Source of the DNA: Methylococcales symbiont of Iophon sp. n. MRB-2018
GTDB lineage: Bacteria; Pseudomonadota; Gammaproteobacteria; Methylococcales; Methylomonadaceae
DNA length: 64,000 nucleotides
NCBI GenBank assembly: GCA_003666325.1
Contig: QPIL01000121.1
Coordinates: 1 to 64,000, forward strand
Direction of reading: 5' to 3'
The notes beneath the pieces are model-generated. The model did no database searches. It was not told the DNA's origin and saw nothing but the letters and a program-made list of their open reading frames with translations. Shown piece by piece: positions 2,250 through 58,045 of the stretch. The position numbers and the translations under genes were made by a program. Each line of letters begins with the position of its first letter. The first letter of the stretch is position 1.

Positions 2250-2448
2250 TAGTCAACCCTTAAAAACACAACAACCATCTGATTTATAATAATAAATTAA
2301 AAAAAACCATAGACAAAACAAGCAGCATTTGGTGAAATAACGGCTATTTCTTGGTCGTTTTGCTGATAAACCATACTAACAAAATCAATCCCAAACATAG
2401 GGCAACTAAAGCGCTTTCATTCAGAGTTATTTGCTGAATAGGGTATAC
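2250..2448. repeat. Element A copy 1 (~200 bp non-coding repeat beginning tagtcaacccttaaaaac)
   Basis: Inverted copy with high similarity by eye at 57651..57847. Confidence 0.8.
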
Positions 2449-2482
2449 CGTCATCCTGCATGTTCTAAGCAGGAATCCATTA

Positions 2483-2569
2483 GTCTTGAGTCTTGAGTCT
2501 TGAGTCTTGAGTCTTGAGTCTTGAGTCTTGAGTCTTGAGTCTTGAGTCTTGAGTCTTGAGTCTTGAGTC
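2483..2569. repeat. Tandem heptamer array (gtcttga)x12 plus partial unit
   Basis: Directly read 7-bp periodicity, 12 identical units. Confidence 0.97.
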
Positions 2570-9202: not shown

Positions 9203-9296
9203 ATTAATTCCTTTGTAGTGAAAGTTTAATAGGTTATCAGGGCTGTCCTTTATTATTCTTAAATCAGGTATAACGTGGTGAAACTATACACTTTTA

Positions 9297-9385
9297 GTCT
9301 TTAGTCTTTAGTCTTTAGTCTTTAGTCTTTAGTCTTGAGTCTTGAGTCTTGAGTCTTGAGTCTTGAGTCTTGAGTCTTGAGTCTT
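9297..9385. repeat. Tandem heptamer array (gtcttta)x5 followed by (gtcttga)x7 plus partial
   Basis: Directly read; variant block boundary at 9332. Confidence 0.97.
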
Positions 9386-9886
9386 TTTTAAATGTTTTTA
9401 AGGGCTGACTATTTATAGTGCTATTATTTTTTGAATATAGTATAATTTTTACTTTGAAAACTATAATTTTAATATTGTTCATATTCTGTTAAGAATTGAT
9501 ATGCTCTAATCAGTCGCGAGTGAATAATACTTATTTAGGGATAGGTATTGAACTATAAAGTACCTATCCCCATTTTTTATCACCCCATCCCTCCTCAAAA
9601 CCTCTCTTTCTCTATCATTAAAAACCACTTCATTATCGCTGGAATACCGTTGAATTTATTTTATTTCTAGCGGTAAAATAGCACGTTTTTAGGCACTTCA
9701 GTAATCCCCTGACTTTTCTTAAAAAACACATATCAGCCTCACTTTCACCCACATCAATAGACTTTATAGCAGGTTCAATAACTGTATTGATTGCTGTTAA
9801 AGAATTTGTGAGAAACACTTTTTGATATTGAAAACGTGTTTATCCAATAAAGGGGATAAAAACTTACAAAAATAACAGGCAAAAAA

Positions 9887-12463: not shown

Positions 12464-12522
12464 CAGTTATCCTTATAAAGTATAGGAAAAATAGTATTGA
12501 GAAATAGTATTCATCTCATTTT

Positions 12523-12672
12523 GAGGCCTCAGCATAACTCTGGACTGGATAAAAAAGTGATAGCATTTTTCAGGTTTTAGTCAAAAATACCAGTGTAATA
12601 GTGCGTTATTTTGGCTGAAAGATGGAAAACTTCTAGCCTTTTTTATCCGTTCATGAGTTATGCTGAGGCCTC
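12523..12672. mobile_element. Element C copy (gaggcctcagcataac ... gttatgctgaggcctc)
   Basis: Long TIRs; flanked by atttt on both sides (apparent 5-bp target duplication). Confidence 0.85.
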
Positions 12673-17247: not shown

Positions 17248-17384
17248 ATTTTCTCCTAAGTTCTTACATGAACGCTACATTCTAAAATTTTGCAGATTAT
17301 GAAAGGTTTGAAAAATATTATCTATAGGAAAAACTCCCAATTATTGAACGATACACTTTAAATATAAGCCCGATAGTGCATAAT

Positions 17385-17459
17385 GAGACCTCAACATAAC
17401 GCATGAACGGATAAAAAAGGCTAGAATTTTTCTCTCGTCCAGAGTTATGCTGAGGTCTC
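17385..17459. mobile_element. Element C, internally deleted copy (75 bp)
   Basis: gagacctcaacataac ... gttatgctgaggtctc flanked by ataat on both sides. Confidence 0.85.
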
Positions 17460-22602: not shown

Positions 22603-22697
22603 CTGTAGGCATCCTTCCGCAGAGAGCTTTTAAGCCATCCCTTGCTGGGGAGAGTTTGCGTGGGGAGGTTCTAAATAAACCACTCTTTTATCTTTTA

Positions 22698-22935
22698 GAG
22701 ACCTCAGCATAACTCTGGAACGGACAAAAAAAGTGATAGAATTTTTCAGGTTTTATACCATTTTCAAGAATAAATGGTGTGATATAGTGCCTATTTTTAT
22801 GCCTTGTGTTTTATAAAAAAATCTAAGCTTACTTATTGATAATCTTCCTATTTTTTATAAATGCAGAATGTGCAAAAATGAGTGCTAGATTGTATCATTT
22901 ATTTTTGAAAATGGGTTTAGTCAAAATACAAGGGT
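22698..22935. mobile_element. Element C copy, interrupted by Element B and lacking its right end
   Basis: gagacctcagcataactctggaacgg ... caggtttta [insert] gtcaaaataca, compared with the intact element at 12523. Confidence 0.75.
22755..22918. mobile_element. Element B copy nested in an Element C copy
   Basis: taccattttcaag ... tttgaaaatggg ends and internal similarity to 2574..2741. Confidence 0.75.
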
Positions 22936-26023: not shown

Positions 26024-26094
26024 CGTTTTTTAGATTATCTAGAAACCTGCTTAAAGGACAAATAGGCGATGAGAGCAATGTATTAATGGCTACT

Positions 26095-26165
26095 TAGTCA
26101 ACCCTTAAAAACCTAAAAAGGACTCAGTCCTGAGTCCTGATAAATCAGTTTTTAAGGGTTGGCTA
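26095..26165. mobile_element. Short inverted-repeat element with internal heptamer units
   Basis: tagtcaacccttaaaaac ... gtttttaagggttggcta enclosing ggactca-gtcctga-gtcctga; ends 5 bp from the recN stop codon. Confidence 0.75.
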
Positions 26166-31903: not shown

Positions 31904-31913
31904 CCCTCCTAGA

Positions 31914-32072
31914 GAGACCCCAGCATAACTCATGAACGGATAAAAAAGGCTAGAAGTTTTCCATCTTTCAGCCAAAATAACGCGCAATAGCCCACTATTA
32001 CACTTATATTTTGACTAAAACCTGAAAAATTCTATCGTTTTTTTCTCATCACCAGAGTTATGCTGAGGTCTC
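31914..32072. mobile_element. Element C copy
   Basis: gagaccccagcataactc ... gagttatgctgaggtctc flanked by ctaga on both sides. Confidence 0.85.
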
Positions 32073-32085
32073 CTAGAGAGAAAAA

Positions 32086-36728: not shown

Positions 36729-36772
36729 AATTCAGTTTGGATTCAGACTGGACTGTTAATACTATACTTAAC

Positions 36773-36934
36773 GAGATCTCAGCATAACGCATGAACGGAT
36801 AAAAAAGACTAGAAGTTTTCTATCTTTCAGCCAAAATAACGGGCAATAGCTCACTATTATGCTTGTATTTTGACTAAAGAGATCTGAAAAATGCTATCCC
36901 TTTTTTATCCGTTCCAGAGTTATACTGAGGTCTC
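36773..36934. mobile_element. Element C copy
   Basis: gagatctcagcataac ... gttatactgaggtctc flanked by taac on both sides. Confidence 0.85.
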
Positions 36935-42346: not shown

Positions 42347-43288
42347 TTGCAAACTGGTACTTTAAAAATAGAGAAGATCATGGAAAAACCTTACATTCTA
42401 CACTTGCTAACCACCGCAAAAAACCTGAGTCCATTTGATGTCAATATGGCTGTTGATGCTGGCTGGGTTTCAGCCATACCCTATATCAATGTTGAACCGA
42501 GTGAAACCAAAGGTTTAGTTCAAGATGTTATCTTTTCTCGTAGCCCAAAAGGCTTGCAAAAAACAGGCATATTTATTGGTGGTAGAGATACCAAACAGGC
42601 TATGGATATGCTTAAAACAGCAAAAAACACCATGCTTCCTCCCTTTGAAGTTTCTGTTTTTGCAGACCCTAGTGGTGCCTTTACTACCGCAGCGGGCATG
42701 GTAACCACCGTAGAAAAAGAACTAAAAGATAAATTCAATACAACGCTCAAAGGTAAAAACCTGCTAACATTGGGAGGTACAGGCCCAGTAGGTCAAGTAG
42801 CCAGTGTTCTAGCTGCGCAAGTGGGTGCTAATGTAAAAATTATTGGCAGACAATTAGATAAAGCAGAACGAGTTTCTGAACTGTGTAACGATGAATTTGC
42901 TGATGGACAAATTGCCATCGAAACAGCCACAAATAATGATATAGCGGAATTAATTAAAACAACCGATGTGGTTTTTTCAACAGGTGCTGCTGGTATTGAA
43001 TTACTCAACAGTGAGCACATAGCCTCCGCCTTACAACTTAAAGTGGTGGCTGATGTTAATGCTATTCCACCTTCAGGTGTCGCAGGTCTTGACCCTTTTG
43101 ATAATGGCAAGAAATTTGCCAATAGTCCAAGTGGTGCTGTAGGTATCGGTGCATTGGCTATCGGTAAGATTAAATATCAAACACAAAATCGTTTATTGAA
43201 AAATATGATCGATAGTGACAAACCGCTTTACTTACATTTTGAACATGCCTTCGAAGTCGCTCGTGAAATAGTAAAATCAGCTAAATAA
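42347..43288 (+). CDS. MtdB/MtdC-family methylene-H4MPT dehydrogenase, paralog 1
   Basis: SPFDVNMAVDAGW, SRSPKGLQKTGIFIGGRD, ADPSGAFTTAAGMV, GGTGPVGQVA; likely start MEKPYILHLL (ATG 42380). Confidence 0.85.
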   Translation: MQTGTLKIEKIMEKPYILHLLTTAKNLSPFDVNMAVDAGWVSAIPYINVEPSETKGLVQDVIFSRSPKGLQKTGIFIGGRDTKQAMDMLKTAKNTMLPPFEVSVFADPSGAFTTAAGMVTTVEKELKDKFNTTLKGKNLLTLGGTGPVGQVASVLAAQVGANVKIIGRQLDKAERVSELCNDEFADGQIAIETATNNDIAELIKTTDVVFSTGAAGIELLNSEHIASALQLKVVADVNAIPPSGVAGLDPFDNGKKFANSPSGAVGIGALAIGKIKYQTQNRLLKNMIDSDKPLYLHFEHAFEVAREIVKSAK

Positions 43289-43298
43289 GGAATATACA

Positions 43299-44195
43299 AT
43301 GGCCAAGCGCAGTATTCTTCACATGTTTGACCCCATGCCAAACAATAGTCCGTTTGATATTAACATGGCATTGGATCAAAACTTTGATCTATTAATGCCT
43401 TATAGCAACGTAAAGTTAGACAGTGTCCATGCCCTCACCCAAGATATTATTTTCTCGCGTAGCCCTGCTGGCATTAAACGCACGGGTATTTTTATCGGTG
43501 GTAGAGATATTGGCTTGGCAATGGATATGATGAATAGTGCTAAACAAGCCATGGTTCCACCTTTTGAGGTATCAGTCCTAGTTGATCCAAGCGGTGCCTT
43601 TACAACGGCAGCAGCATTAGTTGCCAGCGTAGAAAAAGAACTAAAAGAAAAGCATAATAAAGAACTAAAAGATTGTAAGGCAGCCGTATTTGGTGGTACC
43701 GGTCCTGTTGGTATTGCTACAGGTGTTATTGCTTCACTGGCAGGCACAGATACACAGTTAGTCGATCATATATCGTATGATGCGGCTAATGATGCCGCTA
43801 AAGAATATAATCGTCGCTGTAAATGTACCTTATCAGGTGCTTTAGCAGGTTCTGATGAAGAAAAAATAGCTTTATTAGAAGATGTGGATATCATTTTCTG
43901 TGCGGCTAAAGCAGGTATTCAAGTGATCAGTACAGAAGTGCTTGGTCAAGCTAAACAACTTAAAGTAGCAGGTGATGTTAACGCTGTCCCCCCATCAGGT
44001 ATTGAAGGGGTCGCTGCAAAAGATTCAGGAACGCCATTAAACGGTTCAAAAGGTGCATTAGGAATAGGCGCACTAGCCGTTGGCAATATTAAATACAAAG
44101 TACAGCACAAATTATTAAAGCGTATTTTGGAGACAGACAAACCTGTATATCTTGACTTTAGAGAAGCTTTTATTGAAGCTCAGCAACTCGTATAA
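43299..44195 (+). CDS. mtdB: MtdB-family methylene-H4MPT dehydrogenase, paralog 2
   Basis: SPFDINMALDQNFD, SRSPAGIKRTGIFIGGRD, VDPSGAFTTAAALV, FGGTGPVGIATGV. Confidence 0.87.
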   Translation: MAKRSILHMFDPMPNNSPFDINMALDQNFDLLMPYSNVKLDSVHALTQDIIFSRSPAGIKRTGIFIGGRDIGLAMDMMNSAKQAMVPPFEVSVLVDPSGAFTTAAALVASVEKELKEKHNKELKDCKAAVFGGTGPVGIATGVIASLAGTDTQLVDHISYDAANDAAKEYNRRCKCTLSGALAGSDEEKIALLEDVDIIFCAAKAGIQVISTEVLGQAKQLKVAGDVNAVPPSGIEGVAAKDSGTPLNGSKGALGIGALAVGNIKYKVQHKLLKRILETDKPVYLDFREAFIEAQQLV

Positions 44196-44332
44196 TTCTT
44201 TTACTCAATCTTTTGATGCTTAGCTGGATTCTGAGCTTATGCACTTAGTATACGAACTCAGGCTACCCAGCTTGCACAGGGTTTTTATTCAATAGGGAAT
44301 TAGCCATAGACTCCATATTGTCTACCCCCTTT

Positions 44333-44496
44333 TATACCATATTCAATAAATAAATATACTAATATAGTGCTTATATTAGCGCCTTATGTGTTTGCTAAAA
44401 ATAGGGGGCTACTTATTGATAACCCCCTATTTTTAGTGTGCTCATAAGGTGATAATATGAGTGCTAGATCGGTGTATTTATTTGTTGAACATGGTA
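44333..44496. mobile_element. Element B copy abutting the metZ stop codon
   Basis: ataccatattcaataaataaatatac ... tttgttgaacatggtat; near-identical to 2574..2741. Confidence 0.85.
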
Positions 44497-56334: not shown

Positions 56335-57456
56335 TTGAATAAACAGGATCAACTAGAAATGCAAACTAAAACGGATGGTGATTTTCAACAAGAAAGTAGT
56401 ACGGATAAACCTTATTTGGCTGACTTTAAATCACTGACTGCTGAAATAAAACGTCGAGGACTCTATCAAAGAGATACTAAACGAGCCTATATTGAGCTCA
56501 TTGCTCATATTGTTATTTCTATTGTCGGCATCGCTCTATTTATTGTCTTTGACAACATCTTTAGCCGAATACTTTCTGCTTTAATTATGGCATCTGGTTT
56601 ATTAGGGATTGGCACACATACACATAACTCCTCACATAATGCCAGTTCTGAAAAAAACTCGATTGATGATTTTTTAACTTATCTTGGCTATTCGACCCTA
56701 TTAGGTTTCTCTGCTCTTTTTTGGAAATACAAACACTGCATTGTTCATCATAGCAATCCAAATATTCTGGGAATTGATGAAGATATCGACTTAATGCCCT
56801 TTTTTGCTATCACTGAAGATGATTTAAAAAAGGTAGGTAATTTAGGACATTTTTATCACAAGTTTATCCAGCCTGTTATTTTTCCTTTCATGATCAGTCT
56901 GACCGCTTTTAATATTCAACGCCAAGCATGGACCTTCTTGATTAAAGCCTTATTAGACAATAAAAAACGTAAAACCATACATTGGATTGATTTAGCTTAT
57001 AATCTGCTACACATATTAGCTTGGCTAATTATTCCTATGCTGTTTTTTCCCCCCATTGCGGTCATAGAATTTTATATATTAAGAAACGTACTGCTAGGCT
57101 ACGCCTTATTTTTTATGCTGGGTTCTTCACATTTACCAAGTGAAGCCGTTTGTAGCGTAGCAGATCAGCAACGTGCTGATTTCGCACTTAAGCAGACCGC
57201 TGCCACCATTAATATTAGAACCAACCGTTATGGTCGTTTTCTGATGTCGGGACTTGATTATCAAATAGAACATCATTTGTTTCGTGGAGTCAGCTATACC
57301 CGCCTACCAGAGCTTAACGAACTGGTAAAAGAATACTGTAGATATCAAAATTACCCACATAATACACTGGGTTTTTTTGAAGCTTCGTGGAAAACAATTA
57401 CGGTTTTTTACACACCAAAACCTGTACACACTGACCTGCAAAAGCTGATTAGCTAA
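56335..57456 (+). CDS. Fatty acid desaturase family protein
   Basis: His boxes HNSSH, HHSN, QIEHHLF; TTG start at 56335 or ATG at 56359. Confidence 0.85.
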   Translation: MNKQDQLEMQTKTDGDFQQESSTDKPYLADFKSLTAEIKRRGLYQRDTKRAYIELIAHIVISIVGIALFIVFDNIFSRILSALIMASGLLGIGTHTHNSSHNASSEKNSIDDFLTYLGYSTLLGFSALFWKYKHCIVHHSNPNILGIDEDIDLMPFFAITEDDLKKVGNLGHFYHKFIQPVIFPFMISLTAFNIQRQAWTFLIKALLDNKKRKTIHWIDLAYNLLHILAWLIIPMLFFPPIAVIEFYILRNVLLGYALFFMLGSSHLPSEAVCSVADQQRADFALKQTAATINIRTNRYGRFLMSGLDYQIEHHLFRGVSYTRLPELNELVKEYCRYQNYPHNTLGFFEASWKTITVFYTPKPVHTDLQKLIS

Positions 57457-57524
57457 GACTCAAGACTCAGGATTCAGGATTCAGGATTCAGGATTCAGGA
57501 TTCAGGATTCAGGATTCAGGATTC
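57455..57524. repeat. Tandem heptamer array (aagactc)x2 then (aggattc)x8
   Basis: Directly read; array overlaps the desaturase stop codon. Confidence 0.95.
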
Positions 57525-57650
57525 AGAACTAAAGTAACTGGAACCTCTGTTACACGTCATTCCCGAAGTCTGTTATCGGAAATCTAGTTTTAAGTATCTG
57601 GATTCCTGCTTAAAACATGCAGAAATTACGGAGGGAGTGACGCGGATCTT

Positions 57651-57847
57651 ATACCCTATTCAACAAATAACTGTGAATGAAAGAGGTTTAGTTGCTCTGT
57701 GTTTAGGTTGGTTTTGTTAGTATGGTTTATCAGCAAAACGACCAATAAATAGCTGTTATTTTACCAAATACTGCTTGTTTTGTCTATGATTTTTGTTTAA
57801 TTTATTGTTACAAATCAGATGGTTGTTGTGTTTTTAAGGGTTGATTA
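57651..57847. repeat. Element A copy 2 (inverted relative to 2250..2448)
   Basis: Reverse complement aligns along its length with 2250..2448. Confidence 0.8.
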
Positions 57848-58045
57848 AATAAAGTGTTCAGTATTAATCAGCTTGGGGCTTTAACGAAGGGAACATAGCA
57901 GGCTATGTGAGCTAAGTTGCAACGCCTAAGATGGATAAAAAGAGCCACAAGACGACATGGTTATTTATTGCCAGTTGCCTAACTGGCAGTAAGGAAATAG
58001 ATAGACTCACACGGACACGACTGTGCCAAGTATAGGCAATGGATG

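Follow-up and report, generated by a model that had tools for sequence, protein, structure and literature searches.

The window analysed here is a stretch of 64,000 nucleotides, positions 1 to 64,000 of contig QPIL01000121.1 (contig C59 in our numbering) from the Methylococcales symbiont of Iophon sp. n. MRB-2018. It carries tandem repeats of a seven-base unit at several loci, together with parts of a miniature inverted-repeat transposable element (MITE) whose ends contain the motif AGTCAACCCTTAAAAAC. The genome is a 2.09-Mb draft in 123 contigs (98.6% complete). For comparison we used a sister species, the Methylococcales symbiont of the sponge Hymedesmia sp. n. MRB-2018 (G001), which belongs to the same genus. 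Array and motif statistics were sampled, through pattern searches and stretches, from 1.43 of the 2.09 Mb and from 0.74 Mb of the sister. The features of the four loci, including a segment resembling a repetitive extragenic palindrome (REP), parts related to an insertion sequence (IS), an open reading frame (ORF) and the calls of Tandem Repeats Finder (TRF), are as follows.

2246-2251, no strand: TACTTA flank, fitting the target-site-duplication consensus TANNTA (from the sequence; consensus and exact duplicates in other copies)
2252-2447, plus strand: first MITE copy, with terminal repeat GTCAACCCTTAAAAAC and a head derived from the IS (sequence match to the parental IS at its 5′ end)
2448-2480, plus strand: shortened REP-like segment CGTCATCCTGC...AGGAATCCA (from the sequence)
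2482-2569, plus strand: heptamer array of 12.6 units AGTCTTG; the element's right terminal repeat is missing (TRF)
9232-9291, plus strand: 'D' segment before the array; a D segment lies in front of an array in the sister as well (sequence comparison)
9293-9385, plus strand: heptamer array, a TTAGTCT block followed by a TGAGTCT block (TRF)
9394-9409, minus strand: right terminal repeat GTTTTTAAGGGCTGAC, then TATTTA at 9410-9415 (motif match)
26026-26093, plus strand: remnant of an IS5-family transposase C-terminus, interrupted by insertion of the next element (protein match 26026-26157, E 2.2e-6, internal stops)
26097-26163, plus strand: minimal 67-bp MITE with two terminal repeats and about two heptamer units; flanks TACTTA and TAATTA
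57455-57526, minus strand: heptamer array of units TGAATCC and TGAGTCT, which gives the upstream desaturase-like ORF its stop codon (TRF)
57527-57649, minus strand: REP-like hairpin segment of the MITE (from the sequence)
57650-57845, minus strand: MITE head with left terminal repeat (ATCAACCC variant); flank TAAATA at 57846-57851 (91% identity to the 2249 copy)

A preliminary description of the window had reported arrays at 2483, 9297, about 26120-26140 and 57455, each within or near the motif or its relative. Three of these were recovered by TRF, at 2482-2569 (12.6 copies, 100%), 9296-9385 (12.9 copies) and 57467-57526 (8.6 copies), the last with two further units beside it at 57455-57469. 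At the fourth, heptamers are present but amount to only 2.1 copies (26126-26140). The motif was found at all four loci, namely at 2251-2267 and 26096-26112 without mismatch and at 9394-9410, 26148-26164 and 57830-57846 with one mismatch each. The stretch 26095-26165 does have the motif at both ends, as described, but it is a complete miniature element with about two heptamer units rather than a motif-flanked array. The elements at 2249 and 57455 are each single and lack their right end, and 9293 is a right-hand part alone. At 57440-57456, the stop codon supplied by the array ends a fatty-acid-desaturase-like protein at ...QKLIS, whereas the protein of the sister continues ...QKLVSFSVPFDRSINN; here the element alters the end of a gene. 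A separate dispersed repeat with TTATACCATATTCAATAAATAAATATACTA, present at 2569-2663, 22748-22842 and 44328-44422, starts at the end of the 2482 array.

Genome-wide, the motif occurred 156 times with up to two mismatches, and its backwards control did not occur. Inward-facing pairs confirmed that the motif lies in terminal inverted repeats (GTCAACCCTTAAAAAC ... GTTTTTAAGGGTTGAC), which mostly bound elements of about 300-520 bp. The head gave 101 matches in the 1.43 Mb, and at least 40 copies of the 199-bp repeat 2249-2447 were scored; the elements are short, high in copy number and devoid of a transposase, as MITEs are. A full copy begins with the left end and the IS head, together about 196 bp, and continues with the REP-like segment CGTCATTCCTGC...GGAATGACG...GTTCCAGTTAC, the heptamer array and a short right end. 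The array has its GTC strand in common with the left end, and its start lies 297-324 bp from that end in many full copies. At least two heptamer units lie between the ends in 12 of the 13 elements examined.

The preliminary description had also proposed, as an inference, that the arrays are linked to a mobile element, and the insertion sites bear this out: as a terminal repeat, the motif marks the ends of a non-autonomous transposon. The ends are bordered on their outer sides by six base pairs of the form TANNTA, and among 23 elements with paired ends the two 6-mers are identical in 12 (2.4 with shuffled partners, maximum 7). Furthermore, the sister is empty, with a single 6-mer, where our genome is filled at C48:52961-53275 (TAAATA) and C41:16222-16734 (TAATTA), and our genome is likewise empty where the sister is filled at C4:16507-16911 (TACATA). 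The flanking DNA of the two is mostly about 93-96% identical; an average nucleotide identity of 93.6% has been reported for the Hymedesmia and Iophon methanophila methanotrophs, with genome sizes of 2.0-2.2 Mb (PMC6474228). The simplest reading of the empty sites is that the MITE moved in both lineages after their split. The element proper starts at GTC, and the leading A of the originally described motif, with the preceding TT, belongs to the target duplication. Because TTA is thus target-duplication sequence, the sharing of TTAGTC by terminal repeat and heptamer unit may be a coincidence rather than a sign of common origin.

The sister also carries two elements of 1.56 kb (1560 bp) whose ends and first ~190 bp are the same as those of the MITE. 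Their transposase scored 292.6 bits against the IS5-family model NF033578 (cut-off 275). In our genome, a decayed copy of 843 bp (C33:30866-31708) is flanked by the duplication TACCTA and holds broken parts of the transposase. Judged from these matches, the MITE family is an internally deleted IS5-family insertion sequence with the same ends as its autonomous parent, and the parent's transposase would be expected to move the MITE in trans. The usual IS5 groups make target duplications of 2-4 or 8-9 bp, and the 6-bp TANNTA duplication differs from these, although the transposase belongs to that family. Related transposases, with 84-92% protein identity, were found in sulfur-oxidising symbionts of Bathymodiolus, in a sponge Cycloclasticus and in Ca. 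Ruthturnera. The occurrence of nearly the same IS5-family transposase in mussel, clam and sponge symbionts of different bacterial groups suggests exchange among deep-sea symbionts.

How closely the arrays follow the MITE was assessed on 139 period-7 arrays of the T-N-A/C-G-T-C-Y type (three-unit heptamer windows numbered 1408, versus 105 in the reversed control). The genome-wide association that the preliminary description had proposed as a test was found: 64 of the 139 arrays have the motif, with three mismatches allowed, at a distance of at most 400 bp, whereas random placement gave a mean of 9.5 and a maximum of 21 in 500 trials. Conversely, an array is present within 400 bp of 63 of the 119 motifs. 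Summed over our table, a head or REP segment precedes 93 of the 139 arrays on the same strand within 700 bp.

The arrays might instead be independent simple-sequence repeats of a heptamer-rich genome, with the motif nearby merely because both are intergenic. Indeed, 137 of 144 arrays lie outside long ORFs, although long ORFs make up 81% of the sampled DNA. Unrelated heptamers (AAATTGA, AATGGAA and TTTTCAG) form arrays as well, and arrays without a MITE copy exist. Arrays away from the MITE occur in the sister too, and at one orthologous locus without it (C34:67849) both species have arrays, of 29 and 82 bp. In addition, other members of the genus have a few arrays and lack the exact motif; of 80 relatives, two contained the exact motif (one of them as a single match) and four contained arrays. 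However, neither the fixed strand and offset in full copies, nor the excess near the motif over the simulated maximum, nor the two or more units enclosed by nearly all elements would be expected of independent repeats. As the main cause of the arrays, this explanation is quite unlikely and largely refuted here.

The sister's MITE has three heptamer units. Among 39 copies of our genome with full head and REP segment, the number ranges from 2 to 38. Divergence of the element body was correlated neither with unit number (Mantel r -0.13, p 0.90) nor with unit make-up (r -0.07, p 0.79), which indicates that arrays are altered where they stand once inserted, presumably through slippage. Units of one kind are clustered in runs (306 changes, compared to 684 when shuffled).

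A second alternative is that the array is a working part of the element, for instance as an iteron-like site bound by the transposase or by a protein of the host, or as a regulatory tail. The constant orientation of the array and the retention of at least two units by nearly all intact MITEs would fit such a role, but unit number and unit make-up appear unconstrained. Moreover, the array is missing from the full-length IS and from the 843-bp derivative, which nevertheless has an exact target duplication. We set the working-iteron explanation aside, and we regard a working role as improbable. A tail left by RNA-mediated copying, as in retroposons, would account for the four dissimilar upstream segments (A, B, C and D) that all lead, in the same orientation, into one kind of array. 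Against this stand the terminal inverted repeats at both ends of the element, its DDE-type parent and the 6-bp duplications that lie past the array. We also set this explanation aside: in the insertions with empty sites, the array is followed by the right terminal repeat and the target duplication. Such an origin is highly improbable. Equally hard to credit is an assembly artefact, in which repeats were collapsed or chimeric in the short-read draft. The draft does consist of many contigs, and arrays were seen at 5 of 43 contig ends examined, but three empty-site comparisons are exact and have unique flanks, and the same element is present in the separately assembled sister genome.

Very probably, then, an IS5-derived MITE family spreads heptamer seeds whose runs later change by slippage, the array being a passenger. 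Internal deletion of the parent IS would have produced a MITE movable by the parent's transposase, and its insertions would spread short heptamer seeds across the genome. After insertion, each run would lengthen, shorten and drift in unit sequence via replication slippage, perhaps with a contribution from recombination between arrays. Mobile seeds could in this way have given rise to more than a hundred dispersed arrays. The array would be carried by the MITE without being a required part of it. Arrays outside the MITE may arise or persist since the lineage generally favours period-7 tandem repeats.

Several observations weigh against this origin of the arrays or against present mobility of the element. 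For about one in three arrays, no recognisable MITE part lies upstream, and the proposed tie of array to element therefore stands as an enrichment but not as an exclusive association. An intact parental IS or transposase was sought in our own genome and not found; only pieces were recovered, several of them at contig ends. In both full-length sister copies, the transposase is read in two separate frames, by decay or frameshifting. In other genomes, most IS copies are flanked by TANNTA at either end, but the middle bases of the two flanks are unequal. Finally, the unit numbers derive from a draft assembly, and slippage was inferred rather than seen.

The general preference for period 7 is evident in both genomes. 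Counting arrays of at least three copies, 145 have period 7 and at most 8 have any other short period; in the sister there are 25, with other periods reaching at most 7. Further arrays are preceded by segment B (GTAGGGTGCGTTCCACGCACC...AATCAAGG), C or D, and B and C were not found in the 0.74 Mb of sampled sister DNA. Of 10 GTC arrays in the sister, 6 have a different short repeat, GTAACTACTCAGC, no more than 300 bp away, compared to 0.4 at random. It is conceivable, though we consider it doubtful, that arrays act as exchange points at which recombination swaps the preceding segments. The IS5-derived MITE, B, C, D and the sister's GTAACTACTCAGC element would then share a tail and exchange interiors, which, if true, would constitute a modular repeat network in a symbiont genome.

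The combination of MITE and minisatellite is already known from BrickBuilt of Porphyromonas gingivalis, a bacterial MITE with a 23-nt unit and 19 copies (PMC4596501). Both elements have a leader, an internal tandem minisatellite, a tail and short inverted ends, and both are intergenic; a tandem array of variable copy number inside the element is thus common to the two. However, BrickBuilt has ISPg1/ISPg9-like ends and no transposase remnant inside (PMC4596501), whereas the present element has the ends GTCAACCC and a unit of 7 nt, occurs in far more copies, and has an IS5-family parent, an intermediate form and empty sites. In the survey of Mrazek et al. (2007), who proposed slippage, heptanucleotide repeats outnumbered every other class in most of the repeat-rich bacterial genomes, as cited in PMC4679880. 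The dominance of period 7 found here resembles those genomes, but most arrays here probably owe their spread to a transposable element and not to independent origins. The TAACTGA repeats of Beggiatoaceae, which are marine gammaproteobacteria, and the heptamers of cyanobacteria also form dispersed intergenic arrays, although no mobile element was identified there (PMC4679880). The arrays are therefore a distinct case, as had been suggested, but not a new kind, as minisatellites inside bacterial MITEs and heptamer-rich genomes have both been described. The present case contributes a series leading from the parent IS to a MITE with an array, together with the scale.

This series offers a traceable bacterial route from a mobile element to a dispersed satellite, through the parent IS, a deletion intermediate, the three-unit MITE of the sister and MITEs with up to 38 units. 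Because each insertion of the MITE starts repeat growth anew from a similar seed, independently of the others, rates of growth and the preference for seven bases could be measured. Such elements may also affect the short-read assembly of symbiont genomes.

Regarding the rest of the window, its ORF list looks like that of a methylotroph, with a formaldehyde-activating enzyme, methenyl-tetrahydromethanopterin (H4MPT) cyclohydrolase and methylene-H4MPT dehydrogenases. Two neighbouring methylene-H4MPT dehydrogenase-like genes at 42347-44195 are about 72-78% similar, apparently through tandem duplication. Another dispersed repeat, GAGACCTCAGCATAACTC...GAACGGATAAAAAAGG, is present in both orientations at 12516-12672, 17378-17459, 22691-22755, 31907-32073 and 36766-36934, and the sister DNA has copies too. 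In the sister (G001:C63:58934-61925), a 66-bp unit is repeated 45 times in tandem, possibly within a large repeat protein.
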